A stretch of DNA of 48,133 nucleotides from an uncultured Pseudomonadota bacterium (GCA_950059285.1 CATLTV010000014.1:1-48133); one strand, 5' to 3'; shown: positions 2,449-48,133, counted from the first letter of the stretch. A program made the numbers and translations. The notes: generated by a model from the sequence alone, not told the origin.

Positions 2449-2497
2449 AGCTCTATCCTACTGATTTATAATACATTTACATGAAAGCAACCAACAT

Positions 2498-2530: not shown

Positions 2531-2540
2531 AGATTCAGCA

Positions 2541-3740: not shown

Positions 3741-4187
3741 AAGATAACCTCCTTCAAACAAAGCTTATAAATACAACAAATGCGGCCCTTGAGATAAGTG
3801 TGTAGGTGCCGCACATATGTCTTGAGATGTGATTAATTTGGGCCACGTGGCGCATACGCGTATTTCAAAACGAGCGCCAAAAAAAGGACCACACCATGAA
3901 GGTGTTCCTGGCCCGAATACGTCCCTGGAGCAGGTTTAATACTGGTATCGCCTGATTTATGTGGCGATTTCCAGACACACTCCTGGACTGGCCTTGTTTG
4001 GTGCAAGGTTGCAGGTCAACATAGGACCTTTTGCAAGAAAACAAAAGACAAAGCTCATGATTTAAACATCAGAGCCCGATAAAGATGAGGAGCATTGAAG
4101 AAAACTTAAAAACAAAACGCAGCAATTTCAGCAACTTAAGAAAAAAACATAAGCCGACGCGCCCTCAAAAATGGCTGCTGTATCAGC
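3741..4187. other. Gene-free interval upstream of add
   Basis: About 450 bp without a convincing gene. Small inverted repeats are seen: TGCGGC/GCCGCA around 3780-3812 in the add leader, ATCGCC/GGCGAT at 3948-3970, and the palindrome ATACGCGTAT inside a TGGCGC/GCGCCA pair near 3847-3880. The add promoter must lie here. I do not recognise a riboswitch. Confidence 0.5.
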
Positions 4188-5699
4188 TTATTCGCTCTGG
4201 TTTTCACTCTTCACAGGGAGACGCAACCTGAAGATGGAGCCCTCTCCGAGCTTGCTTTCAACCGAGAGCACACCTCCCATAAGTTCTGCAAAATGATAGG
4301 AAATGGTCAAACCAAGCCCTGTGCCCCCAAAACGTTTTTGGACCATATCATCGGCCTGACTAAATGGAAGGAACACGCGATGCATCGCCTCTTCACTAAT
4401 ACCACCGCCCTGATCTTCCACTTCAAACACGATCCACGCATCACCATCGTCCTTGAGCCTGAAGGTAACTTCCTTGCCCTTGCCAAACTTCAACGCGTTG
4501 GACAGCAGGTTTGTCAGGATTTGTTTGAGCCTCAGCACATCCACATGCAACACCTTGGCCTTTGACTGGTTGTCCAGCTTCAAGGTTGTGTGGTCCTGCC
4601 TTGCGAGAAGCTCCATTGGCGCAAGCACCTCATCCACGAGGGTTTTGAGCATCATAACTTCGGAGACAAGCTCCATATGCCCTGCTTCGATCTTCGAGAG
4701 GTCGAGTACGTTTTCGATCAAGCGCATCAGATGACGCCCCGCCTGATTGATGCGCTCCATATCGTCCACATAGTTTGCCTCACCAGCGTCTTCCATGTCC
4801 TCCATTACCATCTCAGTGCCACCAATAATAGCGTTCAGCGGCGTCCTGATTTCATGAGACATATTAGCAAGATAGGCACTCTTTGCACGATTTTCCTCGC
4901 GCGCCTTATCACGCGCCGCTGTCAGCTCCTTGTTCAGACGCTCAAGCTCCCGCGTACGCTCCATGATGCGGCGCTCCATCGCCTCTTCCTTCTGGTTCAA
5001 CCTCTGGAGCCGCTCATTCAAATCTTGCTGGTGCTGATGGTACGAATCAAGCTCATGGCCAAGCTTGCGCTCCCCCTTGATGACCTTGCCCACAACGCCA
5101 AGCTTGGACCACACCGAACGTGAACTTGGAAGACGAATATCAATCCAGCTCTCGTGCGAGTTCTCAATCATATACGAGCACTCGGCCTCATCTAACCCCA
5201 TGATCACTCTGGGCATTTTTGCCATCGTCTTGCACATCACCTTGACATACAACTCGCTCATATTGTCCGCAGGCGAATCGACCAACACATACAAACGTAA
5301 GTGTTGTGGTTCAAGCGTCTCCACATGAGCAGAGGCACACGGAAATTGAGACGAACCAAACCCCTTGTTCAACGCCACATACAACCACGCGGGATCACTC
5401 ACGCGGCGTAACAACCCCTGCAAGGGCTCGATCATCATAGGCAACGACAGAAAACGCGACGCGATAAGCTCTGCCCAATCTACACCAGGCTTCTCTTCCT
5501 CCATTCCTGACAACAACAGGTTGAAGACCTCCCAGGATAGATAATCCAGACCTTCAAGCGAAGCCCTCCCCCCAAGCAGCCCCGAGCGCTTGCACATCTC
5601 ATCTGCAGACAATCCCTGGGACTCCGCACAATCAAGACACAACTCAAAAACCGTGGAGGCAACCTCTCGCCTCGTAATACTTGTCTGCAAATCTATCAT
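4188..5699 (-). CDS. Orphan sensor histidine kinase
   Basis: A 503-residue soluble two-component kinase. Residues 1-200 form an alpha/beta sensor region I do not recognise, with no transmembrane segment. A coiled coil at about 210-270 leads into a HisKA domain with phosphoacceptor His282 in NMSHEIRTPLN. The HATPase domain follows, with the N box (LLSNALKFG), the G1 box (VEDQGGGIS), an F box (FLPFSQAD) and the G2 box (RFGGTGLGL). No receiver domain or adjacent response regulator is present, so the partner is unknown. The start is ATG at 5697-5699, with AGAAGG nine nt upstream; a longer frame to 5750 has weaker support. It is divergent from the GH113-like gene. Confidence 0.85.
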   Translation of the reverse strand: MIDLQTSITRREVASTVFELCLDCAESQGLSADEMCKRSGLLGGRASLEGLDYLSWEVFNLLLSGMEEEKPGVDWAELIASRFLSLPMMIEPLQGLLRRVSDPAWLYVALNKGFGSSQFPCASAHVETLEPQHLRLYVLVDSPADNMSELYVKVMCKTMAKMPRVIMGLDEAECSYMIENSHESWIDIRLPSSRSVWSKLGVVGKVIKGERKLGHELDSYHQHQQDLNERLQRLNQKEEAMERRIMERTRELERLNKELTAARDKAREENRAKSAYLANMSHEIRTPLNAIIGGTEMVMEDMEDAGEANYVDDMERINQAGRHLMRLIENVLDLSKIEAGHMELVSEVMMLKTLVDEVLAPMELLARQDHTTLKLDNQSKAKVLHVDVLRLKQILTNLLSNALKFGKGKEVTFRLKDDGDAWIVFEVEDQGGGISEEAMHRVFLPFSQADDMVQKRFGGTGLGLTISYHFAELMGGVLSVESKLGEGSIFRLRLPVKSENQSE

Positions 5700-5908
5700 G
5701 CTCTCATGCCTTCTTTTAGTTCGTACATCACCGCCCCCAACATACACCAATAATTACACCATGACTATAACTTTACACTTAAACTGTAAAAACAGACATC
5801 CCATATGTATGTTCAAATCCCCTTTAAAAAGACATGGAAACTTCCATTTCCAGCCCTATAATAACCATCTGAATAAAGTAATAGATCAACGCGTTAACTA
5901 GTCAAGCC

Positions 5909-7051
5909 ATGACCCTGCATACACCCGCATATTTCGTCATTTTAATCACACTCCTGAACAGTGTCGCCTGCACTCGCACTACCCCCAAACACACCGCACC
6001 TACCCGATCCACTCCGAACACCTCATCCCACACGCCCGATCAGGTGACCAAATCACACACGCTCCCCAACCACATCAGGCGAGGGGTGTGCCTTGCTCAC
6101 AACTGGCAAAATGGAGGCACACAAGGTTATGGCACACAGGCAAGCCTCGACACGCTCACACACCTTGAGTCCATTGGGGCAACATGGGTGTCCATCACCC
6201 CCTTTGGCTGGATGGACTCCGCGCACTCCACCACCATCAAGGGAGAACATATTGACCCACACATGCTCCCCGCAGGTGGCGAGACACAAGAACGTATAGA
6301 GGCTGTCATCAAGCAAGCCCAACAGAAGGACTTCAAGGTCATGCTCAAGCCCCATATCTGGATTCATGGCGGACTTTGGCGAGGAGAGATCGCCTTTGAT
6401 TCTGATGAGCAATGGGCCAAATGGTGGGAGAATTACTCAGACTTTACAATACATTACGCACACATTGCAGAGAGGTTACATGTTGAAAGCCTTGTGCTTG
6501 GTGTTGAGCTCGTCTCAGCCGTCAAACAACACCCCGAGCATATGCTTCAGTTGATTCAGGACGTGCGCAAGGTCTACTCAGGAGAGCTGACCTACAGCGC
6601 CAACTGGGATGAAAACGTACCCGACAAGGTCTGGCGCAACCTGGATGCGATTGGCGTACAGCTCTATCCTCCTCTGAGCAACAACCCCGAGCCCACTGTT
6701 CAGGAACTTCAACATGCCTTACGCCCACACCTTGAGGCCTGGTCATCGCTGGGAGAGCGACTTGATCGCCCCGTGCTCATCACCGAAGTAGGGTATAAAT
6801 CAGCGCCCACAGCGGTCTCCAAACCATTTGAATGGCCAGAACACCTTCCAGAGAGCGCACGCATCAAAAACGAGCAACTCCAGGCCCATGCCTATGACGC
6901 GCTCCTCTCCGAGATCCCACAACACCAACACATTCATGGCCTGTTTCTCTGGAAGTACTTCACAAATCCAGTCACAGATGAGGAAGGAGTCTGGGGATTT
7001 TGTCCACGTGGAAAGCTGGCAGAAGATGTAATTAAAAAAGCATTTCAGTAA
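5909..7051 (+). CDS. GH113-like glycosidase lipoprotein
   Basis: A 380-residue protein with a hydrophobic N-terminus ending in SVAC, a probable lipobox with Cys21, so likely an outer-membrane or periplasmic lipoprotein. A Thr/Pro-rich linker (22-55) precedes a TIM-barrel domain beginning with RGVCLAHNW. Patterns match the glycoside hydrolase 113 (beta-mannanase-like) clan A family: HIWIHGGLWRG, acid/base candidate Glu200 in LGVELVS, and nucleophile candidate Glu293 in ITEVGYKS. Substrate cannot be read from sequence. Its stop codon is inside the long palindrome 7049-7126, which it shares with the convergent neighbour. The ribosome binding site is weak. Family call is moderate; secretion is more certain. 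Confidence 0.72.
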   Translation: MTLHTPAYFVILITLLNSVACTRTTPKHTAPTRSTPNTSSHTPDQVTKSHTLPNHIRRGVCLAHNWQNGGTQGYGTQASLDTLTHLESIGATWVSITPFGWMDSAHSTTIKGEHIDPHMLPAGGETQERIEAVIKQAQQKDFKVMLKPHIWIHGGLWRGEIAFDSDEQWAKWWENYSDFTIHYAHIAERLHVESLVLGVELVSAVKQHPEHMLQLIQDVRKVYSGELTYSANWDENVPDKVWRNLDAIGVQLYPPLSNNPEPTVQELQHALRPHLEAWSSLGERLDRPVLITEVGYKSAPTAVSKPFEWPEHLPESARIKNEQLQAHAYDALLSEIPQHQHIHGLFLWKYFTNPVTDEEGVWGFCPRGKLAEDVIKKAFQ

Positions 7052-34499: not shown

Positions 34500-35894
34500 T
34501 CACAAGCTCCGACGTGCATCCCATGCTTCGAATTGTCTCGGTGTAATCCGATAACGCATAAAATTTCCCTCGTGTAACGCGTCAAGATCTCCCAACACGA
34601 TCGCGATGAACTTCGCACGCTCCTCTCTATCTTCAAAGAGATCTTTTGCATGCGCCTCAACCTCGGACTCGATACGCACATCAGGCATCGAAACTACCTC
34701 TCGTACCACATCATAAATTTTATCGCGGTGCATGAGCCTGAAGGGATCGGGGTCTGGTACAATCGCTCGCACCTCGGGGTAACGCGCACACGAACGCTCG
34801 TATGCATGCATAAAGAGCTCTCGCATTGGTCCAGGATCACGAAACTCATACACACATAACATCGCACGCAGGTAATCCTCTCGTTCAATGTCAACAAAAG
34901 AAAGCGGTCGCACATTATGTCGGAAGAGTGGCAGGTTTGCGATCAACCTCGCCGTGCGCTTGTTCCCATCCAAAAAAGCTTGCAGGTAAGGGAGCGCTAT
35001 AAGTAACAGAAATGACGCATCAAATGGATCGTCGTATGCCCGTGCAAATGCGAAGATACGCTCAAGCTCCTCACGTAGCATCGAGGGAACATCAGGTGGA
35101 ATATATGTGGACATCGAAATGCGGACAGGTCGATCTCGTACAGCTCCCAGCGAGCGCGCGTCATGCAAAAGATCTTCCATCAAGGTCGCATGCAAGTTCG
35201 ACGCAACCAGGCGTGTGATGCCATAGTCAACAGCATCCATGAGAAACTCCAACGCTCGCTTGTGATTCAGGATCATCGTCGTCTCCACACGATCCTTTCC
35301 TTCTGCTGCCACACCGTGCGCGATGAGTTCGCGTGTATCCAGCAAGGAGTATGTGTTTCCCTCAAGAGCTGACGAAGCCCAAGACAGATCGATGAGCAAG
35401 CGCTCATTGATCTGTCGAATGTATGTACCTGCGATGTCATCCTCCAAACCTGTTGCACCCAGTACATGCAAGCGCCGTCGATCATCGGATGTCAACGCTG
35501 AACACGTACCAAGCTCGGTGAGCCAGCTCTGATCATAGTGTGCGATCACACGTGACGCGACAGGAAGATCCAGGCGAGCCATGGTCTCAAGGCTAGCGTC
35601 ACCAAATACAGGATGTGATGGGGTCGCCTTCAAGATAGGCTCGGGCTGTGATGTCTCTGGTACGTCTGGTGACATGTTTTTGATGGATGGTTCAACACAT
35701 GACACATAACGAGTGGATCGACCCTGACCAGTACGCTCGATCGACCCGGCAAGCCTCAAAGCATCAAGGCGATAACGTAACTGGCGATCGGAGAATGTGG
35801 GATTTAGCTCACGTAGCTGCTCCATGCCAAGCCCCTGTTCTCCAGCCTCAGCAAGTTGATCTATAAGTGCTGTATGCAAATCATCGCCTGTCAT
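34500..35894 (-). CDS. Fic-family protein with N-terminal winged helix and degenerate active site
   Basis: 464 residues from ATG 35892-35894, with GGAG seven nt upstream. A longer frame to 36041 merely reads through the tandem repeats. Residues 1-75 form a winged helix (LREL, FSDRQLRYRLDALRLAGSIERTG), probably DNA-binding. The Fic core has the class II inhibitory helix SSALEGN. The active-site loop is QAFLDGNKRTAR, not HPFxDGNxR: catalytic His is replaced by Gln305 and Pro by Ala. Standard Fic AMPylation or related transfer needs that His, so activity is uncertain. Three 42-bp repeats lie just upstream and may be its operator. It is the last gene of the leftward strand here, next to a strong terminator. 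Confidence 0.8.
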   Translation of the reverse strand: MTGDDLHTALIDQLAEAGEQGLGMEQLRELNPTFSDRQLRYRLDALRLAGSIERTGQGRSTRYVSCVEPSIKNMSPDVPETSQPEPILKATPSHPVFGDASLETMARLDLPVASRVIAHYDQSWLTELGTCSALTSDDRRRLHVLGATGLEDDIAGTYIRQINERLLIDLSWASSALEGNTYSLLDTRELIAHGVAAEGKDRVETTMILNHKRALEFLMDAVDYGITRLVASNLHATLMEDLLHDARSLGAVRDRPVRISMSTYIPPDVPSMLREELERIFAFARAYDDPFDASFLLLIALPYLQAFLDGNKRTARLIANLPLFRHNVRPLSFVDIEREDYLRAMLCVYEFRDPGPMRELFMHAYERSCARYPEVRAIVPDPDPFRLMHRDKIYDVVREVVSMPDVRIESEVEAHAKDLFEDREERAKFIAIVLGDLDALHEGNFMRYRITPRQFEAWDARRSL

Positions 35895-35917
35895 GATTTC
35901 TCCAGATTGAGTCGTTG

Positions 35918-36043
35918 CGTGACAGTTATCCTTACACTTTGTCACGAAAAAACCTGTTACGTGACAATTATCCTTACATTTTGTCACGTAAATACGCGTT
36001 ACGTGACAATTATCCTTACACTTTGTCAGGATAATTGTCACGT
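35918..36043. repeat. Three tandem 42-bp operator-like repeats
   Basis: Units begin at 35918, 35960 and 36002 (period exactly 42 bp, four helical turns). Each contains GTGACA, TTATCCTTAC and TGTCA(C/G) in a dyad-like arrangement. The array ends in an inverted copy (GATAATTGTCACG). No spacers, so it is not CRISPR. It sits 24 bp upstream of the Fic start. Confidence 0.85.
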
Positions 36044-36182: not shown

Positions 36183-37484
36183 TCAATGCCTTGTGGCTAG
36201 TTTCATCACGTCAAGCTGAGTCCTCTCCACGCTGTACTCCACGCGTGCCCCGTTGTGATAATGCTGTAAGTAAATGGCATCATACCTTTGCGCTCGTGCA
36301 AATTCATACAACAACACGCTATGCTTTGCCTGTCCCGAGGTGAGATCCACGACTACAGTCCTTGAGATGACATCCTCACCCACGAATGCCTTCAACCCCT
36401 TCAAGAACTCACCCATATCCTCGCAATATTCAAACTTCTTTGCCTGAGCATACCTCTCCTTCACCTGGTCAAACGATCTGGCTGTCTGCTCTGTCACCAC
36501 GACCACTGAATGTTTTGGTTTATATAGCTCGTGTAAAAAGTAACAGAGCCCCATGTTCTTGCTCAGCACCATCACCAACGTATCCACATCCTGATAAGCG
36601 AAACCTTCACGCTGCCTTAACGCCTCTGCTAGCGGCTTTGCCAGGTCACTCTCGAAATACGAGCTCCGTTTTCTAAAATCAAGATACTCGCGGTTGGCAT
36701 AGGCGAGCTTTTCCTCAAGCGAGGAATCTTTACCAGGCGGCATATCAAGCTTGTTCAACAGTGGCTTGAGTGCCCTGATAAAGTTGCTCTCGTTCACATC
36801 CAATGCATACACGCTCAACGTTGCATCTGTACGCTCAAGATCCTTGGCCTTCTTCTTCGCCTTTTCATAATTAAGAGGACTCACAAAGAGATGATGCTCC
36901 TTCTCACCTGACTTCTCCATCATCCTGTAGATCGCATCAATCTTCTCCTCAATCCCCTCTACCCCTGCAAGTCCACCATCCCACGCCGCGCTCGCCCACA
37001 CATTCTCCATCGTATTGACCTTCATCACCGCAAGGTAAAGACTCGCCGCGAGTATAAATGTGCCTGACTCGTAGGTGAACAAGAGCGCTTCCCCCTCGTT
37101 ATGCCAGAAACGACGCACCCCCAGGGGGTCATTATCCATAGAATAGGGATGCAGGTGATACCCCTCCAGCTGCTCTGCTTGAAGACCACCCCCACCAAGG
37201 AGCAAGTTCTTGATACGCTCCTCTTCATGTGCAAGCTGTTGCCTGTACTCAGGGTTTACATCAGGTGAAATGTCTTGCTCAAGCCATTGAAATTGAAGAC
37301 AAAAGCCAGCATAAAGAAGGTCGTGTTTGTCATGCTCAAGGAGTGTGTCATGGTAAAAGAGGACCTGTGCAATACCAGAACCTCCCCTCGGCTCAAGTTC
37401 ATCAAGCTCTTTTTGCCAGTACGTGGGCATCAAACGCCTGGCCTGTCGAGGTCTCTTCTCCAAGGCATCTTTCAGTGTGGTCAT
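36183..37484 (-). CDS. Unknown protein with possible CARF-like C-terminal domain
   Basis: 433 residues; no signal or membrane segment. The C-terminal ~150 residues have a Rossmann-like order: strand VVVVTEQT, helix, then VVVDLTSGQAKHSVLLYEFA and IYLQHYHN. The DLTSGxxKxS stretch resembles the hNxTGGTKxM motif of CARF/DUF1887 (Card1-like) domains that bind cyclic oligoadenylate. A weaker echo, ESGTFILAASLYLAV, lies near residue 140, so a doubled fold is possible. No nuclease motif of a known CARF effector is evident. It starts three nt after the 485-residue gene and shares its promoter. The match is by eye and could be chance Rossmann similarity. Confidence 0.55.
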   Translation of the reverse strand: MTTLKDALEKRPRQARRLMPTYWQKELDELEPRGGSGIAQVLFYHDTLLEHDKHDLLYAGFCLQFQWLEQDISPDVNPEYRQQLAHEEERIKNLLLGGGGLQAEQLEGYHLHPYSMDNDPLGVRRFWHNEGEALLFTYESGTFILAASLYLAVMKVNTMENVWASAAWDGGLAGVEGIEEKIDAIYRMMEKSGEKEHHLFVSPLNYEKAKKKAKDLERTDATLSVYALDVNESNFIRALKPLLNKLDMPPGKDSSLEEKLAYANREYLDFRKRSSYFESDLAKPLAEALRQREGFAYQDVDTLVMVLSKNMGLCYFLHELYKPKHSVVVVTEQTARSFDQVKERYAQAKKFEYCEDMGEFLKGLKAFVGEDVISRTVVVDLTSGQAKHSVLLYEFARAQRYDAIYLQHYHNGARVEYSVERTQLDVMKLATRH

Positions 37485-37487
37485 CTG

Positions 37488-38945
37488 TTAAATATCCCTT
37501 ACCTTGATCCCCGAATCAATTGTACCAGTGCCATCAGGGCGTCGTGTAATAAGCATGATTCGCAAAGGTTCCTTGGCTCGCAATGCTCCCAGAGAAACCT
37601 CTGACTCACACACCCTGTCTTCATCGGGTGTGAGCTTGAGACAGGCCGAACCAATATAAAGGCTCTCTATAAAGCCTGGAGACCCTGTGAGGATCACGTA
37701 ACACATGGTGTCATCAGGGAGCGTTTTGTATTGACGAGGCACATAGATCTTCAAGTTCCAGTCTCGACCAAAGCTTTCATATTCAATGATGTACTCGTTG
37801 CTTCCCTCTGATGTTGCTGCTGCTGCTTTGTCCATGCGTTCACCCAGGTTGTTGATAGGTTCATGTTGCTTGGCTTGTTCCTTGTGGTGCTCATCAAAAT
37901 AAGCCCATAAATCAACAACGTTATTGGTATCGGGGAGCAGGTCAACATCCCCAACATCCTCAACCAACTTATCCTCAAACTTTTGCATCAGATGACGAAT
38001 GCTGAGTTCACCCCACCACATGTCGGGCTCTTCATCAGAGACACGATCAAGCCACATATCCGTGGCAAAGTTGAGCTCCATGGGTAACTCCATGAGCGTC
38101 TCTTCTATTTGCGCATCAATACTGTATAACTGCTCATAAATTGTGGGCATATGTGGATACATGATCACACCAATGCTCTGCAAATTATCACGCTGATGAG
38201 CGAGCCTTGTCACCTGGTCATGCAACTCCTCGTGAGACATCTCGGCATCTTGCAGCGCTTGTTGCAACGAGTCATGGTCTTGACCCAAGTCATCGATTGC
38301 GGTCAAAACGAGGCTCTTGATGGGCTCCATATCAAATCTATCCTCGAGAGCATTTTGCCACGCTCTGATAGGAGCTTCAAAATCAGGTCGAACACCACGC
38401 ATCAAGTCCCTGGTCTGTGCTGCTGAGAGCAACGCTTCTGTGGACCACAATCGGATGAAAGCACCTGCTGTAGCAAGCTCTTGCAAGACACCCTTGATCA
38501 AGAATATATCTTTGTGTTTTTCAAAAAAATCGTCATTTTTCAGAGACTTGAGCCACTCCTCAACGGGGGCATCCAACGTCCTGGGAAGACCTGTCGTCAC
38601 AGGCTCGGCCTGCTTGACCACGCCCAACATGAGCTGATCTTCATCATACCAGAGCACCAGGGCAAGTCGTGTCTCGGGATCTTCAATGTGTGCAGGTTGA
38701 ACTTTCACCTCATCAAAGCTCACATATTCCACATGTTTGGGTGTCGTACTGCTCCTGTGACGACCAGGTGCACATGTAACCTTATCTTCTTTCAGGGCAA
38801 GCCCCATCCTGGACAGGTATGTGTTAAACTGTTCTAAATCTTCAGGATCGTCTCGCAGGGTGTCCATGCTCAGAGCAATAAGAATGCCACGAGAAGGATA
38901 GTGATGTGCGTCCAGAATATCGTGAATCTTGGCTTTATGAGACAT
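37488..38945 (-). CDS. Unknown 485-residue protein in the sigma/CARF operon
   Basis: I do not recognise the family. The N-terminal ~100 residues are alpha/beta with a basic loop (APGRHRSSTTPK). The middle is mostly helical with an acidic, coiled-coil-like region (DLGQDHDSLQQALQDAEMSHEELHDQ near 220-245). A beta-rich C-terminal domain of ~120 residues (NEYIIEYESFGRDWNLKIYVPRQ... MLITRR) looks like a separate fold. No catalytic or metal motif is seen. AAGGA is nine nt before the ATG. The bipartite promoter element lies ~50 nt upstream. Because it sits between a sigma factor and a possible nucleotide sensor, it could be an anti-sigma or coupling factor, which is conjecture. Confidence 0.6.
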   Translation of the reverse strand: MSHKAKIHDILDAHHYPSRGILIALSMDTLRDDPEDLEQFNTYLSRMGLALKEDKVTCAPGRHRSSTTPKHVEYVSFDEVKVQPAHIEDPETRLALVLWYDEDQLMLGVVKQAEPVTTGLPRTLDAPVEEWLKSLKNDDFFEKHKDIFLIKGVLQELATAGAFIRLWSTEALLSAAQTRDLMRGVRPDFEAPIRAWQNALEDRFDMEPIKSLVLTAIDDLGQDHDSLQQALQDAEMSHEELHDQVTRLAHQRDNLQSIGVIMYPHMPTIYEQLYSIDAQIEETLMELPMELNFATDMWLDRVSDEEPDMWWGELSIRHLMQKFEDKLVEDVGDVDLLPDTNNVVDLWAYFDEHHKEQAKQHEPINNLGERMDKAAAATSEGSNEYIIEYESFGRDWNLKIYVPRQYKTLPDDTMCYVILTGSPGFIESLYIGSACLKLTPDEDRVCESEVSLGALRAKEPLRIMLITRRPDGTGTIDSGIKVRDI

Positions 38946-38990: not shown

Positions 38991-39034
38991 TCACCTGTGT
39001 AGAGGGATCTCCATTCGTAAATCTGACACTTTTG
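38991..39034 (-). promoter_or_regulatory. Bipartite shared promoter-like element, site A
   Basis: Read leftward: AAAAGTGTCAG, 17 nt, CCTCTA, 4 nt, GGTGAG. It matches site B (46475) closely and site C (41016) with one extra spacer base. It lies in the 100-bp gap after the sigma gene, about 46 nt before the 485-residue gene's start. Spacing and halves fit an ECF sigma -35/-10 pair. Confidence 0.75.
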
Positions 39035-39045
39035 CGCCATAATTT

Positions 39046-39774
39046 TCACGCATCGTCAATGATTTTCATCATTACAAGCATCGCTTTTACCTGTTCATAA
39101 GTATCTGCGTCCATCTTCCCTGAATACTCTTTAAACCATGTCTCAAGGCGTGCTCTAATACGAGTTCTGCGCTTGTTGATATTATTGACTGCCTTTTTCA
39201 ACTGCTGCTTGGAGAGTGGCTCTTCACTTTGATTTTGAGCGATCTCTTCAGTTGATAACTTCTTGACCTCAAAGTCATAAAGAGTCTCAATGTGTTTGAG
39301 ATCTTGTTCAAGCCATGCATCTTGTCGAACCTTGCTATACTCTTGCTTGAGTAATTTCAAAGACTGCATTTGATAGGAGTTGGGGTTGTGAGGATCTACA
39401 CGCTCTGCGGGTATCAAGCGATCTGGCCTCAATGTGTCGTCTGGTTGAGGAATTTCGGATTCATCATCGCTCACCGTAGTTGAACTCTCACATCGTTCTT
39501 TTCTCTCTTTATAATACTTTATGCACTTATTTCTGAAGATCATCCATAAATAATTCCTGGTGTTTTTAGTAGGCTTGAAAGGACTTGAGCGCTTTGAAAT
39601 ATCAAGCATGATTTCAGCTCTAACATCGTCCACCTCATCTGAGCTAAACGACGGCCATCTAAACGTATTCACCTCTCTTTGAACGACAGCAAACGCAGTT
39701 TCTGACTCTGGGGTATTAACCCTACCATTCATGATCCAGTGGTTGATGACATCCATCGCTTCATCGAGATTCAT
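39046..39774 (-). CDS. ECF-like RNA polymerase sigma factor
   Basis: 242 residues, cytoplasmic. Residues 35-90 match sigma region 2 (EVDDVRAEIMLDIS, then NYLWMIFRNKCIKYYKERKER, the -10-binding helix). An acidic linker is followed by region 4-like helices (LSTEEIAQNQ...LSKQQLKKAVNNINKRRTRIRARLE), which would bind -35. The linker is longer than in most ECF sigmas of ~190 residues. The ATG overlaps the DUF3800 stop (ATGA), so they are coupled. No recognised anti-sigma is adjacent. Three identical promoter-like elements in this island are plausible targets. It has no strong match by eye to a named ECF group. Confidence 0.75.
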   Translation of the reverse strand: MNLDEAMDVINHWIMNGRVNTPESETAFAVVQREVNTFRWPSFSSDEVDDVRAEIMLDISKRSSPFKPTKNTRNYLWMIFRNKCIKYYKERKERCESSTTVSDDESEIPQPDDTLRPDRLIPAERVDPHNPNSYQMQSLKLLKQEYSKVRQDAWLEQDLKHIETLYDFEVKKLSTEEIAQNQSEEPLSKQQLKKAVNNINKRRTRIRARLETWFKEYSGKMDADTYEQVKAMLVMMKIIDDA

Positions 39775-40883
39775 ATCTCCCCCTCTTTCTCAAAATATGT
39801 TTTCCAGTTGTTGTACTGTGTCTGGCCCCAGCTTGGGAGCTGGCTCAACACCTCATGTTCATGTTTGAGGTGGACCATTTCGCCCTGACGATATGTGTTC
39901 AAGCACGCCTGCGTATCACCTGTAATCGCCATGGTATATTGCTCGCTCTCTGGGGCCTTGATGGACAACCCATATTTACTTGAAACAACTGATAAATCTG
40001 ACACTTCGACCTGCCCACCTTCTTTGAGTTTTTTGCGTACCTTGTTGGCGATGTAGTCGGCGTAGGCGAGCAGCGCGGGCGTGGATTGCTTGCCATAGGT
40101 GCGGGTGGCGAAGGTGATTTTGGTGAGGCGCTCGGGTTGCTGCCAGTCCATCGCTTCACTGATGTGGGCGTAGGCTGCTTGACAGTGCTCAAAGTTCATC
40201 ATCTTCCGCTTATAGTCATGTTCAAGATGTGCGACATACCTGTCTGCTACACAGATATCTAACTTGTGCTCGCCAGGGATCGAGAGGATGGCGTCACGTA
40301 CGCGCTCAAATAAACAGATGAGCTGTGTGGTGTAGCGGTCAGGTTGGTTGGTCTGGCGAGGCTCGACGGGGAGTGGTTGATCGGTGACAAAGGCGAGATA
40401 GCTGTCAAGGCCGCTCTCCTTGAATAGAGTCTCCAGTACGTTTCGCTTCTCCGTGGCAAACTGATTCATGCGAATGCGGTCCGCACCATGAAGCGCTTTG
40501 TACGCTGCACGTTCAAATTTTTGTGCAAGCTTATATTTTAGCTCGAGATCCTGCCCTAGTGAGATGGCGAGCTGCTCACGCTCGCGAGGAGACAGACGCT
40601 GCAAGGTTGCCTCGACCCAGCCAAGAACCTCGGGTGAGCTGTTCTTTCTGTAGTATAAAAAATTCCACAAGAACCACATCGGGTTCTTGTTGGTCAGGGT
40701 GGCGTGAGGTGGCCAGGAGAGCTCGGGCAGGGTCGCGCCAATGCGAGCTTGAAGGTCCTCGTTGACCTCGTCCAGGGTGTTGTCCTTGGGAAGTCGAATC
40801 AACACGCCGGCAAGTGTTGTAAGCTCCTTATGACAGTCATAATTCCCTGACTCATCAATATAAAGCGCCCATCTTTGACTCAT
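39771..40883 (-). CDS. DUF3800-like protein
   Basis: 370 residues from ATG 40881-40883. The opening ALYIDESGNY (Asp, Glu near residues 9-10) and the late ALLAYADYIANKVRKKLK match the DUF3800 pattern, an RNase H-like fold found often in defence islands. A nuclease role has been suggested for the family, but activity is not established. The frame runs back to 41102, but the N-terminal 73 residues look non-coding and would cover the opposing promoter, so the inner start, with GAGCGAG eight nt upstream, is preferred. It is the first gene of a leftward pair with the sigma factor. Its own promoter does not carry the shared element. Confidence 0.7.
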   Translation of the reverse strand: MSQRWALYIDESGNYDCHKELTTLAGVLIRLPKDNTLDEVNEDLQARIGATLPELSWPPHATLTNKNPMWFLWNFLYYRKNSSPEVLGWVEATLQRLSPREREQLAISLGQDLELKYKLAQKFERAAYKALHGADRIRMNQFATEKRNVLETLFKESGLDSYLAFVTDQPLPVEPRQTNQPDRYTTQLICLFERVRDAILSIPGEHKLDICVADRYVAHLEHDYKRKMMNFEHCQAAYAHISEAMDWQQPERLTKITFATRTYGKQSTPALLAYADYIANKVRKKLKEGGQVEVSDLSVVSSKYGLSIKAPESEQYTMAITGDTQACLNTYRQGEMVHLKHEHEVLSQLPSWGQTQYNNWKTYFEKEGEI

Positions 40884-41015
40884 AAATATCTCGCTCTCAT
40901 CTGGTATGACTATAGTTATTTCATAGAGCACATTCATGCTTTTCAAACGGTGTGTCAAGCGCATTACCATCCCCACAAGAAAGCCTCTCCACACATTTTT
41001 TATATTTTTCTTGGT

Positions 41016-41060
41016 AAAAGTGTCAGTTTTCCCACAACCCACCCCCTCTTTACTTGTGAA
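41016..41060 (+). promoter_or_regulatory. Bipartite shared promoter-like element, site C
   Basis: Read rightward: AAAAGTGTCAG, 18 nt, CCTCTT, 4 nt, TGTGAA. One base longer and slightly less conserved than A and B. It points toward the acidic-protein gene, start 84 nt past its end. The same interval has the opposite-strand promoter of the DUF3800-sigma pair. Confidence 0.65.
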
Positions 41061-41143
41061 AGCCACTTTACCCCTTGCTGAAAATACACAGCGTCGGGTC
41101 ATCGCACGAGAGAATCACCATGTCTGGGAAAAAGGAGCACGTC

Positions 41144-42253
41144 ATGACTGTACATCACAAGAAAACTCTTAAAGAAGATCAGCAGCTTGACCTCCTGGAC
41201 CTCTCCTGGAGCACGTTTGACCTCACTGAGGATGACGACACCCTCGATGATGTGTCCTGGAACAATCTCACACAGGATTGTCCTGACACCGAGGAGGTGC
41301 TCGTCAAGCCAGCTGCCAGCGCAGACTTCTGGAATGAATCTTCTCTTGATGAAGAGCTCCAGAAGCTGGAGTTTCACGCCAAGGCAACTGTCGAAGCTGT
41401 GCCCCTTGCGCCCGCACAACAGGCCGTCGTGACAGCACCTCTGCCCGAGGATCTCAATATGGATGACTGCTCCTGGAACGACGCTTTCCTTGATGACCTC
41501 GATGATTTTGAGGACTTTGAAGAGGAAGATGAGTTCCTTGAGTGGGACAGCTTTGACGCTGTTCATGACATGGATGCTGCGCCCGCGGGCCCATCTGTGG
41601 ATGACACCCTCGACAAGGAGACCCTCCTGCTCCGCAAGTGCAGCGCGCTGGCCAGCAAGATGGGCCTTGGTGTCGGCCAGCTCAATGCGCTCGACACGCT
41701 CATGGAGATGTTTGTCAAGACGGGGAACTTCACCGCCACGGCAAAGGCTGTGCTCAAGTTTCATACGCATGGTCACAGCTTGCAGGAGCTACACTTTGCG
41801 CAGTCCCTCCGCATGTTCTGGCTTGATTTTGCGCCCAACTGGTGTGTCCACTGGCCGTTTTCCTGGGAGGTCGCCACCGCGCTGGCCGCACGCTTCATGC
41901 ACGAGGTCACGGTGGAAGAGGTCGCCGAGGGGCTGCTCTCGATGCTGGAGTTCTTCACCGAGGACCGCGCCTCGCTGAGCTACGTCTTCTCGGGAAAGAA
42001 GCACGTCGGGCCTGTGCTGCCCATGGCCGAATGGCTTGATTACCCTGACAAGTTCTTCATGCCCTATGTCCTCGCTTGCCTTGAACAGGCCCCCGAGGAG
42101 GTCGAGTTCTATACCTGGGTTGATGAGCTGCTCGCGTGCCCTCTCCCTCCTGGTCTTGAGCCTCCAGCGATGTACTGCTCGCGTCAGGATCATTCCTCCT
42201 GGGATGCCATGGCGACCTCTCAGAAGTACCTCGCTTATATGCTCGGTGACTGA
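41144..42253 (+). CDS. Acidic protein with repeated tryptophan motifs
   Basis: 369 residues from ATG 41144, with AAAGGAG six nt upstream. Residues 15-150 are strongly acidic and probably disordered, with four similar short motifs: LDLSWSTF (18-25), LDDVSWNN (34-41), ADFWNESSLDEEL (60-72), MDDCSWNDAFLDDL (106-119). The remaining ~210 residues look helical and folded (GVGQLNALDTLMEMFVKTGNFTATAKAVLKF). No enzyme motif. The acidic Trp motifs may bind the helicase, RNA polymerase or another basic partner, or mimic DNA (inference). It precedes the SNF2 gene by 115 bp with a hairpin between. GC-rich relative to the opposing operon. Confidence 0.6.
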   Translation: MTVHHKKTLKEDQQLDLLDLSWSTFDLTEDDDTLDDVSWNNLTQDCPDTEEVLVKPAASADFWNESSLDEELQKLEFHAKATVEAVPLAPAQQAVVTAPLPEDLNMDDCSWNDAFLDDLDDFEDFEEEDEFLEWDSFDAVHDMDAAPAGPSVDDTLDKETLLLRKCSALASKMGLGVGQLNALDTLMEMFVKTGNFTATAKAVLKFHTHGHSLQELHFAQSLRMFWLDFAPNWCVHWPFSWEVATALAARFMHEVTVEEVAEGLLSMLEFFTEDRASLSYVFSGKKHVGPVLPMAEWLDYPDKFFMPYVLACLEQAPEEVEFYTWVDELLACPLPPGLEPPAMYCSRQDHSSWDAMATSQKYLAYMLGD

Positions 42254-42260
42254 CCACCCT

Positions 42261-42313
42261 GTCATGATGTAGTATTTGACCATGCAATAAAGCAGCAAAT
42301 ACTACATCATGAC
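42261..42313. promoter_or_regulatory. AT-rich hairpin between acidic-protein and helicase genes
   Basis: 18-nt arms (42261-42278, 42296-42313) pair perfectly with a 17-nt loop. No U run follows, so an attenuator, processing site or regulator-binding site is more likely than a simple terminator. Confidence 0.55.
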
Positions 42314-42368
42314 CTGTCAAAAGTCAAACATTTTTATTATTTAAGCATCTGATTTATAAGGAGTTTTC

Positions 42369-45356
42369 ATGTCCGCATTCACACCCTCCGCACTCGTCCC
42401 ACAACGAGGATGCCTCGTCACGTTCACCAGTCAAGCACAGGACCAAAACCAGGATTTCAAGGGGCTCTGGCAGGTGTTCAACGTCGAGGCCGCGACAGCG
42501 CACTCCCCTGCCTGGCTACATCTCAAGAACACCTCTCCAGGAGCATCCCAGGTGCGCAAGGCCAAAGCCAGTGATGTACAGTGCGGGTTTCGTCCAGGCT
42601 ATTACGTCCAGATGATCCCCTCGACGTACCACACGCAGAGGATCGAAGGTGAGGTCGTGGGTGTCACAACGGTGGCTCATCAGCAGCTCGTCTTTGTGCG
42701 TGACTTCCAGTGTGGGTCCGTGCATAGCATCCCCTTTGAGCTCCTGCGCACGCTCAAAAACCCTTTTAAAAACTATATCGGCGGCGTGTTCACCTCGAAG
42801 GAGAACCACCACAAGGTACAGCCAGCAGAGGCGCTGCGTCTGCGCACGCTAGCGCATGCGCTTGAGCGCTGGAATGAGAACACGGGTGCGCTCTCAAGGC
42901 TCGAGGTCGATCCATTGCCTCACCAGCTCCAGCTCGTGCAGGAGATCCTGCGTAGCGCCAACCTGAACTGGATGATCGCCGATGATGTCGGCCTCGGCAA
43001 GACCATCGAGGTTGGGATGTTGCTCGCTGCGCTTCGTAGCAAGAAGCCCAACATGCGTATCCTCATTGTCACGCCTTCTGGCCTCACAAAACAGTGGCAG
43101 GAAGAGCTCGCGGACAAGTTTAACATGCGTGATTTCATGGTGTACGGCGATGACTTTACTGTCAACGAGGACCATCACTGGTCCGCCTACTCTCGTGTGA
43201 TCGTGTCGCTTGACCGCGCCAAACACGAGAACCACATCCCGACATTCCAACGCTCTGGCGCCTGGGATCTCATCCTGTTTGATGAGGCCCACCGCCTCAC
43301 TCGCCGCGAGTATGGCACCAATTATCACACCTCTCAGCGCTACATGCTCGCGCAGACCTTGCGTGAGCTGACGCCTGCGATGTTGCTGCTCACCGCCACG
43401 CCTCACCAGGGCAAAACAGACCAGTTCCGCGCGCTGCTAAACCTGTTGCGTCCCGAGCATAAGGAGGCGTTTGATGCCATCCACCAGAACGGTGATTTGC
43501 TCGGGGAGATGATCTATCGTAACCGCAAGAGCGACGTCACCGACGCCGAGGGCAAGCGCATCTTCAAGGGACAAAAAGCCCATCAAATTCAGTTCAGTAT
43601 GAGTGATGAGGAGCGCACCTTCGACACCCTCCTCCAGAGCTATTTTCAACAATGCGGCGACGAGGCTCGTCGTCGCGGAGGCACACTTGGTCGAAGCATT
43701 GGCTTTGTGATGACCGTGTTTCGCAAGCTCGCCGCGTCCTCTCATGCGGCAATTTACAGGGCGCTGTGTAACCGTCTCAAGGTGTTGCGCAACGCCCATG
43801 ATAACTTGCTTGAAGTGCGCAACCGTATCGAGCGTGGCCTGATGCCTGAAGAGTTTTTGGAGAAGCACAACATCACCAACACGGAGGCGCTTGATGCGCG
43901 CTTCTCTGGTGAGATTGATGAGCTTGTGGCAGCGCACAAGGTTGCCTCCAGTTTCTTTGACGGTGAGGAGAAGGAGCTTGAGTCGTTGATCGATCTCTTA
44001 AAACCTCTGGTCGAGGATGACTCCAAGCTTGAAACCTTCATGGAGAGGATTTTTGGCGAGATCATTCGCAACGACCGCTCACGTCGTGTGCTTATTTTCA
44101 CGGAGTTCAGGGCCACGCAGGAGCATGTACAATGTGCACTTGAACATGAGCTTGGAAAGCAGCGTGTGGGCCTGATTCATGGTGGGATGAAGATGGATGA
44201 GAGGCGCGAAGTCGTGCGTCGTTTCTCTGATGATATTCAGGTAGTTATCTCGACTGAAGCGGGCGGCGAGGGGCTGAACATGCATGATGATTGTTATACA
44301 ATGGTCAACTATGACTTGCCCTGGAACCCAATGCGTCTCGTGCAGCGCGTGGGCCGTCTGTATCGTTATGGTCAGCAGCGTGAGGTGCTCGTGTTTAACC
44401 TGCAATCACCCGATACGCTGGATGGCAACGTGGTCACGCGTCTGCACGACCGTATCAACAGCGTGGTCGAGGATCTTGGCGACTGGAACAACGAGTATGA
44501 TGACCAGCTTCATCAGGAGATTCTTGGCAGCCTCGTCGAGTTAATTGATGGCAGCAAGATCGCCGAGATTATTGAGCAAAGCGCCTCCCAGAGTGGTTTT
44601 GACGTGGAGCATGAGATCGATCATCTGGTCGATGAAGCGCGTACAAACTTTAAACTTCAGGAAGAGATGCTTGGTTTTGCGCGCCACTTTGATCCCGAAC
44701 TCAGGCAACGCGAGCTGACACTTGAGCATGGCCATCTGGATAGCTTTGTGGAGTCGATGCTTGTGGCGTTGGGGTGTCGTGTCATTGAGCGTCAACATGA
44801 GGGACAGGTCTGGCGCGTGCAGCTCACGGACCAGGTGCGCAACCACCTGGGACTTCGTGCCGAGAGTATCCGCATCACCACTCGCCGTACCTTCAAGCGC
44901 AAGCTCGGGCGCGATGTACGCATGATGGACTTTGAGGATGATCTGTTTTTGCTCCTGATGAACACGGCAAAAGCCGAGTCTTTCGGGGGACATGCAGCGA
45001 GCGTGAACTTCACAACCTCCAAAATGCCTGACGCCAGCTTGCTCTCGTTTGTGCGCGCCGTATGGCAAGACAAACATGGTGAGAAGGTGCGTGAAGAGGT
45101 GGTGTCCATTGGATTGAACGAGGAAGGAGAGGTCAACATCAACGCCGCCGAACATGTGGCGTGGCTTGGTCAACGTGCGCGTACAGGTAGCGCAGAGGTT
45201 TCTCGTGGAGCTGATGCGATGAAGCGTCGCCGTGTGCATGCACATGCAGTGAAGCAGGCGCTTGATGTGTATATGCATGAGCTTGCACAGATGAATTCAG
45301 GCCAGGTGTTTCCGATGTTCTCACATCCGCTCGGGTTTGGAGCAGCACCTGAATAA
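42369..45356 (+). CDS. SNF2/RapA-like helicase
   Basis: 995 residues; AAGGAG five nt before the ATG. Helicase superfamily 2, SNF2 type: motif I DDVGLGKT near 203, DEAH box near 305, TATPHQGK, then the C-terminal lobe with VLIFTEF, STEAGGEGLN and motif VI VGRLYRYGQ near 661. ATP-driven translocation on duplex DNA is the family activity. An N-terminal region with a beta-rich SH3-like stretch (about 1-160) and a ~250-residue C-terminal extension are of unknown role. It resembles helicases in defence islands, such as DISARM DrmD, but with no methylase or DUF1998 partner here. cas1 starts 23 bp later, so they are probably co-transcribed. A role in DNA processing for spacer capture is conjecture. 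Confidence 0.88.
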   Translation: MSAFTPSALVPQRGCLVTFTSQAQDQNQDFKGLWQVFNVEAATAHSPAWLHLKNTSPGASQVRKAKASDVQCGFRPGYYVQMIPSTYHTQRIEGEVVGVTTVAHQQLVFVRDFQCGSVHSIPFELLRTLKNPFKNYIGGVFTSKENHHKVQPAEALRLRTLAHALERWNENTGALSRLEVDPLPHQLQLVQEILRSANLNWMIADDVGLGKTIEVGMLLAALRSKKPNMRILIVTPSGLTKQWQEELADKFNMRDFMVYGDDFTVNEDHHWSAYSRVIVSLDRAKHENHIPTFQRSGAWDLILFDEAHRLTRREYGTNYHTSQRYMLAQTLRELTPAMLLLTATPHQGKTDQFRALLNLLRPEHKEAFDAIHQNGDLLGEMIYRNRKSDVTDAEGKRIFKGQKAHQIQFSMSDEERTFDTLLQSYFQQCGDEARRRGGTLGRSIGFVMTVFRKLAASSHAAIYRALCNRLKVLRNAHDNLLEVRNRIERGLMPEEFLEKHNITNTEALDARFSGEIDELVAAHKVASSFFDGEEKELESLIDLLKPLVEDDSKLETFMERIFGEIIRNDRSRRVLIFTEFRATQEHVQCALEHELGKQRVGLIHGGMKMDERREVVRRFSDDIQVVISTEAGGEGLNMHDDCYTMVNYDLPWNPMRLVQRVGRLYRYGQQREVLVFNLQSPDTLDGNVVTRLHDRINSVVEDLGDWNNEYDDQLHQEILGSLVELIDGSKIAEIIEQSASQSGFDVEHEIDHLVDEARTNFKLQEEMLGFARHFDPELRQRELTLEHGHLDSFVESMLVALGCRVIERQHEGQVWRVQLTDQVRNHLGLRAESIRITTRRTFKRKLGRDVRMMDFEDDLFLLLMNTAKAESFGGHAASVNFTTSKMPDASLLSFVRAVWQDKHGEKVREEVVSIGLNEEGEVNINAAEHVAWLGQRARTGSAEVSRGADAMKRRRVHAHAVKQALDVYMHELAQMNSGQVFPMFSHPLGFGAAPE

Positions 45357-45379
45357 TTACCACCTTACAGGAGCACGAT

Positions 45380-46474
45380 ATGATGGAACGTATGGACATT
45401 ATCGTCGAGGAGTATGGCCTGAAGCTTGGCAAGACCAGTGAACGGTTGTGTATTCGTCGCGGAGAAGAGGTTATCTTTGAAAAACCTCTGACGCATATAC
45501 GTTCCATCATGTTGTATTCGCGAGGTATTTCGTTATCGACGGATTTGATTGCCTCGTGTGCGAGGTATCAAATACCCGTGAGTATATGTGAGCGTGAGGG
45601 CTCTCCACTGGCACGTGTGGTCATCCCCTCTGTGGAGGGCGAGGCGAAGACGAGGAGGATGCAGCTTGAGATATCAAGAGATGGCGACAGGGGGTTTATC
45701 TTGGCGCGCCAACTTGTGGCCGAAAAGTGTCGAGGTCAGCTCAGGATGATGCGTTATCTTGAGCGCAGGGTGAGTGGCAACGTGATGTTGTACAGGGAGG
45801 ACATGGAGCGATTGACCCGACATGGCAAGCGTGTGGTGAGCGTGGAGTGTTGGGGAAAGGATCATCTTGATGAGGCTCTGGACAGGTTAATGGGACATGA
45901 GGGGATGGCTGCGCGCGCTTACTGGAGTGCGTGGGGCAGTACGTTGGGGGTGCAGTCGTGGCAAGGAAGGACAAAGCGAGGTGCAACAGACAGCATCAAC
46001 ATGGCGTTAAACTATGGTTATGCCATCTTACGCGAACAGGTCTGGGGCATGATTGAGCGCGCACATCTTGATGCGTATTCAGGTGTGTTACATCGCGATC
46101 GAGGAGGTCGGCCAGGGTTGGTGCTCGATGTCATGGAGCCGTGGCGTATTCTTGTGGAGGACGCGGTGGGTTCCATGGCGAGGAGGTCCAAGAGCGTGTG
46201 GATGGAGGAAGGTGAACTTTCAACATCAAGACGCCGCGAGATCGCGGATAGCGTGCTGGGTCGTTTGAACTCGCCTGCAAGTTTTGGAAAACGTCGGGCT
46301 CGTGTAGCAGCGTGCATGCAACAGAGCGTGAGGGAAGTGGCGCGCTACATTCGTGGGGAGGTGGAGACGCCAAGGTTATACCGATGGGATGTAAGGGGGC
46401 CAAAGGAGCCCGTGGGTGATGGTGAGCTTGATGAGCTGGAGCGTCTGTTCTGCCGCACAGGACAAAAACGTTAG
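45380..46474 (+). CDS. cas1: CRISPR integrase Cas1
   Basis: 364 residues; AGGAG precedes the ATG. Cas1 integrates prespacers at the leader end of an array, with Cas2. The metal triad is visible: Glu174 in GHEGMAARAYW, His238 in SGVLHRDRGGRPGLVLD, Glu253 (and Asp250) in LDVMEPWR. An N-terminal beta domain precedes the helical catalytic domain; the C-terminus has the usual long helices. It lies 23 bp after the helicase gene. A shared promoter element B starts right at its stop codon, so cas2 has its own start of transcription. The coding strand is strikingly G-rich. Confidence 0.95.
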   Translation: MMERMDIIVEEYGLKLGKTSERLCIRRGEEVIFEKPLTHIRSIMLYSRGISLSTDLIASCARYQIPVSICEREGSPLARVVIPSVEGEAKTRRMQLEISRDGDRGFILARQLVAEKCRGQLRMMRYLERRVSGNVMLYREDMERLTRHGKRVVSVECWGKDHLDEALDRLMGHEGMAARAYWSAWGSTLGVQSWQGRTKRGATDSINMALNYGYAILREQVWGMIERAHLDAYSGVLHRDRGGRPGLVLDVMEPWRILVEDAVGSMARRSKSVWMEEGELSTSRRREIADSVLGRLNSPASFGKRRARVAACMQQSVREVARYIRGEVETPRLYRWDVRGPKEPVGDGELDELERLFCRTGQKR

Positions 46475-46518
46475 AAAAGTGTCAGATTTCGGGGAGTTCA
46501 TGCCTCTAATATGGTGAG
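46475..46518 (+). promoter_or_regulatory. Bipartite shared promoter-like element, site B
   Basis: AAAAGTGTCAG, 17 nt, CCTCTA, 4 nt, GGTGAG, directly after the cas1 stop and 26 nt before the cas2 ATG. It matches site A over both halves and in spacing. An ECF-type promoter for cas2 is the simplest reading. Confidence 0.75.
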
Positions 46519-46544: not shown

Positions 46545-46832
46545 ATGTATATTCTGGTCATGTACGACATTGGTTCTAACGCAGCGAGACGACGTGTGGT
46601 GAGGGCGTGTAAGGATGAGGGCTTGAGGCGAGTGCAGTATAGCGTGTTTGTAGGCACCGCGGGGATGGAGCAACATGAGCGTTTATCAGAGGTGATGAGG
46701 GTGGCGCTGGGAGATGCTCCTGGTGTGATTCATGTGATGCCATTGCACAGGGAGAGTTTGAAGAGGTTGACCGAGATTTTTAATCCGTGGCCTGAAGAGG
46801 AGGACGAGGACGGGCACCAGGGCGCGGCCTGA
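46545..46832 (+). CDS. cas2: CRISPR adaptation protein Cas2
   Basis: 95 residues from ATG 46545, with AGGAGG seven nt upstream. The ferredoxin-like fold starts YILVMYDIGS, with the conserved Asp of the YDI motif, then RRRVVRACKDEGLRRVQYSVFVG and a short acidic tail. Cas2 forms the dimer that holds Cas1 for spacer integration. It ends 3 nt before the inverted-repeat terminator that separates it from cas4. Confidence 0.93.
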   Translation: MYILVMYDIGSNAARRRVVRACKDEGLRRVQYSVFVGTAGMEQHERLSEVMRVALGDAPGVIHVMPLHRESLKRLTEIFNPWPEEEDEDGHQGAA

Positions 46833-46945: not shown

Positions 46946-47626
46946 ATGAGAGGTCAGGAAGGGACACGAGAGGATATAGGGCCGTTTCCAGCAGGGGAGC
47001 TGGTGCGTTATTGTTTTTGTAGCAGGGCATCGTACTGGCGCAGGAGGTTACCGGAGCAGAGGTTGGAGGAGCTTCAGGGGACGGTGGGTGTCATGAGGTT
47101 AAGGGGGAGGCGTTTGCATGCAGAGGTAGGTCAGAGGAGCTTGAGGGAGTTACAGGTGGCGCTTGGGTTGGAGAGTGGAATCAGGAGGAAGCGACACGAG
47201 GTGAAGGTGATGGGGAGGCGCTGGTTTGGGAGGGTGGATTTGGTGTTGGAGCTTGAGAGTGGAGAGGTGGTGTTGGTGGAGATCAAGAGCAGCGCGAGGA
47301 ACAGGCGAGGAGCGAGGAGCCAGCTTGGAGCGTATCTGGAGGCGTGGAGTGAGGAGCATCGTGAGCCAGCCAGGGGGATGGTGTGGGAGCTGGTGGACGA
47401 TGAGTATGTGTATGAGGTGTTGATGGAGGATGTGCGAGGGGATCTTGATGAGATGTACGATGAGCTGGCGAAGATGGAGGTGAGCTGTCGTTTTCCCGAG
47501 ACGCATGCGCCCCCGTCGGCGTGCAAGGTGTGTGAGTATCTGGGGATGTGTGATGATGATCTTTGGAGAGAGCGAGAGGAGCCGGGCGAGGAGGACATCT
47601 TCGTGTACAAATCCCACATCTTCTAA
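46946..47626 (+). CDS. cas4: Cas4 exonuclease
   Basis: 226 residues from ATG 46946, with AAGG about seven nt upstream; a GTG at 46901 falls in the hairpin and is less likely. The RecB-like nuclease core has Asp98 (GRVDLVLE), the E-x-K pair Glu112/Lys114 (VEIKSS) and Gln126 with Tyr (QLGAYLEAW). Cysteines 23/25 near the N-terminus and CKVCEYLGMC (193-202) at the C-terminus suit an iron-sulfur cluster. Cas4 trims prespacer overhangs and sets PAM choice with Cas1. It ends 507 bp before the window edge. The coding strand is very G-rich. Confidence 0.92.
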   Translation: MRGQEGTREDIGPFPAGELVRYCFCSRASYWRRRLPEQRLEELQGTVGVMRLRGRRLHAEVGQRSLRELQVALGLESGIRRKRHEVKVMGRRWFGRVDLVLELESGEVVLVEIKSSARNRRGARSQLGAYLEAWSEEHREPARGMVWELVDDEYVYEVLMEDVRGDLDEMYDELAKMEVSCRFPETHAPPSACKVCEYLGMCDDDLWREREEPGEEDIFVYKSHIF

Positions 47627-48133
47627 ATACCGATATTTTTGTTGATTTTAATTTATATTTCAACAATTTATATTATCCTCACACACATTAAGTTAACATA
47701 ATAAAGTTACCACAAGAAAGATGACAAGAAAACTGTACCACAGCTCAAAACCCCCAAAAACGGGTTGCAATGGTACATTTTTGATACCAAGTGTATTTTT
47801 ATACTATGGTTATTTTGATACATTGATGCACATGATGAATCAATTTTTTAATTTAAATCCTTTGACTTAGCACACATTTTTTGTCATTTTGCATTGCAAC
47901 ATAAAACATGTCCAAAAACAGCCCCAAAAACACCCCAGGTTGTAACACATACCCATTGGTCGGTTTTTGATTTTGAGAAAAATTTTTATTCTTATAATAT
48001 TCAATATGTTAAGAGCGATCAAAAAATGAATGGCATGATAATTGTCAGGACGCTGGAGCAAAAAACTGTACCACACCTCCCCCATTTTGGCCCTCCAGAG
48101 CTGTGGTACAGTTTTTTGCATTGCACATGAACC
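47627..48133. other. AT-rich interval after cas4 with inverted sequence copies
   Basis: No gene. AAAACTGTACCACAGCTC occurs at 47729-47746, and its exact complement at 48098-48115, 350 bp apart. A second, shorter copy (48058-48074) pairs with 48103-48119 as a hairpin ending in TTTTTT. It could be a mobile-element end, a terminator or the start of a leader; it is not a CRISPR array. Confidence 0.6.
48058..48119. terminator. Hairpin with T run near the window edge
   Basis: 17-nt arms (48058-48074, 48103-48119) pair exactly around a 28-nt loop, with six A and six T at the outer ends. It could end transcripts from either side. The right arm also pairs with the 18-nt copy at 47729. Confidence 0.55.

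Follow-up and report, generated by a model that had tools for sequence, protein, structure and literature searches.

Three matching two-part elements stand in front of CRISPR adaptation genes and their neighbours in the window, by which we mean the whole stretch of 48,133 nucleotides that was analysed. They raise the question of whether they are promoters and, if so, which sigma factor reads them. The genes of the island lie on both strands. The order on the minus strand is a DUF3800 protein, a sigma factor, p3 (485 aa) and CARF-Lon, and on the plus strand an acidic protein, a SNF2 helicase, cas1, cas2 and cas4:

39771..40880, minus: DUF3800-like protein, first gene of the sigma operon (Pfam DUF3800 at E 0.046 only; HMM from ten homologous loci, E 2e-38)
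39046..39774, minus: ECF-like sigma factor (TIGR02937, E 2.4e-6; NF041236, E 5.8e-6; module sigma HMM, E 1.9e-4)
37488..38945, minus: p3, 485 aa, the conserved third protein of the module (HMM from ten p3 proteins, E 7e-16)
36183..37484, minus: CARF-Lon protease, 433 aa (PDLC01981, E 1.7e-37; putative catalytic S140 and K181; CARF domain at about 295-433)
41120..42253, plus: acidic protein, 377 aa, of no known family
42369..45356, plus: SNF2 helicase related to DrmD/BrxH
45380..46474, plus: cas1 (PF01867, E 8.9e-60)
46545..46832, plus: cas2 (PF09827, E 1.7e-13)
46946..47626, plus: cas4-like nuclease (PF01930, E 1.4e-7; PADLOC Cas4)

The stop codon of the DUF3800 gene overlaps the start of the sigma gene. 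Directly 3' of cas2 and before cas4, a perfect 33-bp inverted repeat with a 3-nt loop (46835-46867/46871-46903) forms a strong hairpin, perhaps a terminator or a processing site. Further inverted repeats, of the AACTGTACCACA type, are found at 47735-48120, close to the contig end, up to which no CRISPR array or effector genes appear.

The three elements are placed as follows:

39033-38991, minus: element A, with AAAAGTGTCAG at 39033-39023, CCTCTA at 39005-39000 and GTGA at 38994-38991; 5' of p3 and CARF-Lon
41016-41059, plus: element C, with AAAAGTGTCAG at 41016-41026, CCTCTT at 41045-41050 and GTGA at 41056-41059; 5' of the acidic protein, the helicase and cas1
46475-46517, plus: element B, with AAAAGTGTCAG at 46475-46485, CCTCTA at 46503-46508 and GTGA at 46514-46517; starts directly 3' of cas1 and lies 5' of cas2-cas4

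A pattern scan of the window recovered all three at the places and on the strands that the first-pass annotation had given, with the shared blocks and the 17-18 nt gap that it had described. The first block is followed after 17 nt in A and B, and after 18 nt in C, whose spacer is one base longer, by CCTCTA (A and B) or CCTCTT (C), and GTGA is common to the three. Each element precedes a gene in matching orientation, as had been claimed, and the distance from GTGA to the start codon is 45 nt for A (ATG at 38945), 27 nt for B (cas2 ATG at 46545) and 60 nt for C (ATG at 41120). Two of the units proposed behind them have to be amended. Element A does precede both genes of what had been called an unknown-CARF pair, but the supposed CARF protein is a CARF-Lon protease. 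Element C is indeed upstream of the proposed acidic-helicase-cas1 unit, but the acidic-protein gene is separated from the helicase by a segment with a perfect 18-bp inverted repeat (42261-42278/42296-42313) and AT-rich sequence after it, so that this may not be one simple unit. The repeat is a possible attenuator within the unit driven by element C.

When the window was dinucleotide-shuffled 100 times, the pattern AAAAGTGTCAG-N15-20-CCTCTW never matched. The exact form, AAAAGTGTCAG-N17/18-CCTCTW, matches three times in the genome (6,647,234 bases, 441 contigs), always in this island, and shortening the first block to AGTGTCAG added no genome match beyond A, B and C. The spacers and flanks of the three are unrelated to one another, so A, B and C did not arise as copies of a longer repeat. 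All three elements are real, and chance does not explain them. No copy was seen in front of the DUF3800-sigma operon.

A, B and C are the strongest members of a wider set. A weight matrix trained on the three window sites alone was run on 65 kb of other CRISPR contigs, where five matches scored at least 19, against 0.075 expected from Markov simulation. The same three-site matrix gave no match on 332 kb of other genomes. The five matches are:

C31, 12256: before the type III-B operon (CARF-RelE, then cmr)
C31, 36614: before a 1632-aa MkoA-like helicase
C41, 30397 and 30498: before the type I-E cas3 and, divergently, the I-E cas1
C67, 10037: before an I-B-like (MYXAN) operon

Genome-wide, TGTCAG-N17/18-CTCTW matched 25 times and the reversed pattern nine times. 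The extended consensus AAAMN-TGTCAG-N18-CTCTW-N5-GTGA, with up to three mismatches, found 21 sites in the genome against none for the reversed control. This consensus was refined after some sites had been seen, and the three-site matrix test is therefore the cleaner evidence. Seven sites have no more than one mismatch, and every one of them is upstream of defence or CRISPR-associated regulatory genes:

before p3/CARF-Lon, cas2, the I-E cas1 and III-B
C26: before a small protein, then hsdM and hsdS
C26: before a WYL regulator
C36: before hsdR, within the end of the preceding hsdS-like frame (compare site B, directly 3' of cas1)

Further candidate sites front the I-E cas3, the I-B-like operon, the MkoA-like helicase and a PDC-S11 protein (C194). 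At two mismatches there are two sites, on C68 and C142, both of which fall inside reading frames, and twelve sites genome-wide have three mismatches. One of the latter, on C122, was rejected as a gene promoter, as only an unconvincing 113-aa frame lies downstream. At 978-6880 the same contig (L130) holds genes that resemble DISARM drmC, drmB and drmA by eye, and a weak element copy at 422 is directed toward their 3' end. The set comprises about a dozen sites and fronts all four cas-gene loci found in the genome and several restriction genes. The first-pass annotation had spoken of three units and of adaptation; that scope was too narrow, as the set also takes in the effector operons of I-E, I-B-like and III-B, the WYL regulator and type I restriction genes.

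It is extremely improbable that the elements are chance similarities, or copies of a mobile repeat, with no regulatory function. The blocks are short, as such a reading needs, but it is contradicted by the shuffles, the Markov simulation, the reversed-pattern controls and the 56 relatives described below, and by the unrelated spacers and flanks and the promoter-like placing ahead of defence genes.

When twelve sites are aligned, a T-rich stretch lies 5' of the first block, the two blocks are about 23-24 nt apart centre to centre, with start codons downstream, and GTGA or a near match is found 3' of the second block in most sites. Architecture, position and genome-wide distribution together make a predicted sigma-type promoter, shared by the CRISPR adaptation genes, a well supported reading, and the element would act as such a promoter. 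A conserved GTGA 3' of the -10 block is unusual in a plain sigma promoter. The element could instead be an operator, with GTGA as a part of it, for a DNA-binding regulator that acts jointly with the housekeeping sigma. One example would be the WYL protein of C26, whose gene itself carries the element; WYL proteins regulate defence systems. We regard an operator as quite unlikely, in view of two blocks held at a nearly fixed gap of 18-19 nt and at a fixed distance to a third, with no palindrome and no TATAAT-like -10 in the twelve-site alignment.

As to which sigma would read such a promoter, the gene in the window is present in one of 57 genomes of the class and absent from the other 56 at E 1e-5. 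The strict element has eight matches in this genome; the 56 relatives without the sigma have a single, chance-like match together, and the control gave one match. In 257 billion bases, with one genome per species, six single element matches were found in unrelated phyla, all inside reading frames. Among the data searched, element and sigma are confined to one and the same genome, and this co-occurrence, concerning one genome, is not a statistical series. The first-pass annotation had held that an element found everywhere regardless of the sigma gene would speak against its proposal. This is not what the searches gave: copies do exist elsewhere in the genome, but the strong copies were found at defence operons, and the relatives that lack the sigma have no more than the one chance-like match.

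The explanation that we prefer, with moderate confidence, is that the element (T-rich stretch, AAA(A/C)(G/C)TGTCAG, N18, CTCTW, N5, GTGA) serves as promoter for an alternative sigma that controls an immune regulon, and that its most likely reader is the sigma at 39046-39774, released through the module described below. That the island sigma drives the units had been proposed from the start; this link, which we infer, is supported by the co-occurrence in a single genome and by the place of the gene in a protease-sigma module. Against it, other lineage-specific regulators co-occur with the element equally well, the sigma scores below curated cut-offs, and its operon with DUF3800 has no element, although autoregulation is common among ECF sigmas. 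The elements could instead be promoters of another alternative sigma of the same genome, one that controls defence genes including the island, while the island sigma has other targets. Other sigma-like genes in the genome (weak matches) allow for a different reader, and the bare DUF3800-sigma operon fits one, as does a co-occurrence that cannot be counted as statistical. However, the three best copies surround the island sigma gene, one of them between it and its module partners, and protease-linked CRISPR sigmas with cas1 targets are known (PMC10028731). Such a second sigma seems to us unlikely, though by no means negligible.

For the island sigma as preferred reader, the product of 39046..39774 is predicted to be an ECF-like sigma with a recognisable region 2. 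TIGR02937 matches this region at 27.3 bits, below its curated cut-off of 42.9, and Pfam Sigma70_r2 at E 0.0049 and 17.1 bits against a cut-off of 24. NF041236, the type III-E CRISPR sigma, is its second-best NCBIfam model (26.4 bits, cut-off 100), with an alignment that extends to residue 214; support for region 4 is weak. A profile of three sigma sequences had no match among solved structures. Short-peptide patterns, which reach close relatives only, found none in 84,980 species genomes or in IMG/VR, and tblastn against plasmids with CARF-Lon, p3 and the sigma gave no match.

CARF-Lon matches the PADLOC model CARF_m2--CARF_LON. Its residues S140 and K181 are invariant across four homologues at only 23-24% identity, and the region around them aligns by profile with the active-site region of A. 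fulgidus Lon, which points to a Lon domain with a Ser-Lys dyad and predicted catalysis. The C-terminal part has a profile match to the CARF domain of Cam1 and a fold match to the CARF domains of Csm6 and Can2 (Z 13.6 to 14.8). No Lon fold was listed in the fold search, in which the Lon part of the model was barely tested, so its absence is no evidence against Lon. p3 had no meaningful match to solved structures, and its structure model is unusable (mean pLDDT 36); its alignment contains the conserved motifs RDDLxS and WW.

The arrangement of these genes is recurrent. Through DUF3800 homologues, an operon of DUF3800, a sigma-like gene and p3 was found in eight further genomes of the phylum, with ten loci in all. 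A Lon-like gene comes next after p3 at eight of the ten, the assignment being by weak matches and by Ser/Lys motifs seen by eye. HMMs built from the ten loci, with the window excluded, recognised the DUF3800 protein, p3 and the sigma (E values listed above), each far ahead of unrelated window proteins, and the sigma was the sole window protein with E below 1 for the module sigma HMM. The module Lon HMM gave 0.19 on the window, which cannot decide. Several of the module sigma-like proteins match sigma models and others match none; the module sigmas carry a conserved RxRxR-type stretch at the C-terminal end. The module adjoins type III CRISPR at two loci, in one case beside Cas10 (L165, E 5e-71) and in the other (L162) next to a CRISPR array and to genes that look Cmr-like by eye. 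A related arrangement has DUF3800 and a sigma with a Csx1-like gene and CARF-Lon (L057). A 281-aa gene beside another CARF-Lon (L056) looked like a sigma by eye and was rejected, having no family support. DUF3800 had also been considered as the lone conserved partner, an idea dropped when p3 proved conserved too. Most module Lon-like proteins (L160-L169) match no PADLOC sensor family and some of these loci have no nearby CRISPR genes, so other signals may feed the module. In other CRISPR loci, DUF3800 is described as an accessory protein with an RNase H fold (PMC10910872, PMC12669027).

In the preferred explanation, p3 (or the DUF3800 protein) would keep the sigma inactive in the uninfected cell. 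When the type III-B complex detects invader RNA, Cas10 would make cyclic oligoadenylate, the probable trigger, which can be expected here because the genome's type III-B Cas10 bears AGGDD. The signal would bind the CARF domain of CARF-Lon, the Lon domain would cut the inhibitor, and the freed sigma would let RNA polymerase start at the elements. This would raise p3/CARF-Lon, as a feedback, along with the helicase-cas1-cas2-cas4 adaptation genes, the I-E, I-B-like and III-B operons, hsdM/hsdS, hsdR, the WYL regulator and others. This is the simplest model, the CalpL scheme with a CARF domain as sensor. Judged by gene order and conservation, p3 is the first candidate for both sigma inhibitor and protease substrate; it is favoured because it is conserved between sigma and Lon. 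The DUF3800 protein, the stop codon of whose gene overlaps the sigma start, is the second candidate. One sigma, probably freed by a signal-activated protease, may in this way switch on much of the antiviral immunity together.

The type III-B locus (L072, on C31, 22-2957 and 12349-20557) has an array with some 40 repeats, together with the two CARF effectors CARF-RelE and CARF-HEPN. Neither cas1 nor cas2 was seen on this contig, and its array may therefore draw on the adaptation genes of the window.

The window system would work like CalpL/CalpT/CalpS, the Lon protease, anti-sigma and ECF sigma of a type III CRISPR system (PMC11417357, PMC12751052, PMC11229360), and like CASP-sigma, yet it is a member of neither. 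As with the former, a Lon domain, N-terminal in both, is joined to a sensor of cyclic oligoadenylate, an ECF-like sigma and one more protein are encoded next to it, and the expected output is transcription. The sensor is SAVED in CalpL and CARF in the window protein, which is why the latter is not filed as CalpL. In further contrast, the window has an additional DUF3800 gene, p3 is without a shown relation to CalpT, and a candidate regulon is visible in the window's genome.

In the type III-E system of Cas7-11, Csx29, Csx30 and CASP-sigma, three promoter matches for the sigma lie within its own locus, one of them at cas1, and the authors suggested that spacer acquisition is under sigma control; their scan of D. 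ishimotonii found one good site outside the type III-E locus, at nhaA (PMC10028731). The likeness lies in a CRISPR-linked sigma with three promoter matches, one at a cas1-type target, and in the type III-E sigma model being among the two best NCBIfam matches of the window sigma. Cas7-11 and Csx29 are not among the family matches of the island proteins. The protease is caspase-like there and Lon here, the best targets of the window element include several other immune systems, and the window sigma stays under the NF041236 cut-off (26.4 against 100 bits). In Myxococcus xanthus, DdvS/DdvA is presented in a review as an ECF sigma that controls a defence island including a type III-B CRISPR (PMC12288465). 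A title cited there describes one island and a transmembrane anti-sigma, whereas here there is a CARF-Lon module with dispersed targets.

Given CASP-sigma, CalpL/T/S and DdvS, sigma-controlled CRISPR adaptation is not a new idea. What is new is the CARF-Lon/p3/DUF3800 module with a dispersed candidate regulon across several immune systems. It is quite possible, though we stop just short of calling it probable, that a protease gated by cyclic oligoadenylate frees one master-switch sigma for I-B-like, I-E and III-B CRISPR, adaptation and restriction, and that DUF3800-sigma-p3-Lon is a wider family of switches, so far undescribed. If so, detection by one CRISPR system would arm others. CRISPR-linked protease-sigma systems are known with targets so far mainly within their own locus, and a dispersed regulon, to which the sequence points here, would place adaptation, type I interference and restriction under the coordination of type III sensing. 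The defined promoter sequences make the targets of a CRISPR-released sigma directly testable, and p3 and DUF3800 are named as candidate inhibitors within a recurrent module.

Elsewhere in the window, the start of a Fic-domain gene (34500-36041) holds three tandem 42-nt copies, 79-83% alike, at 35914-36039.
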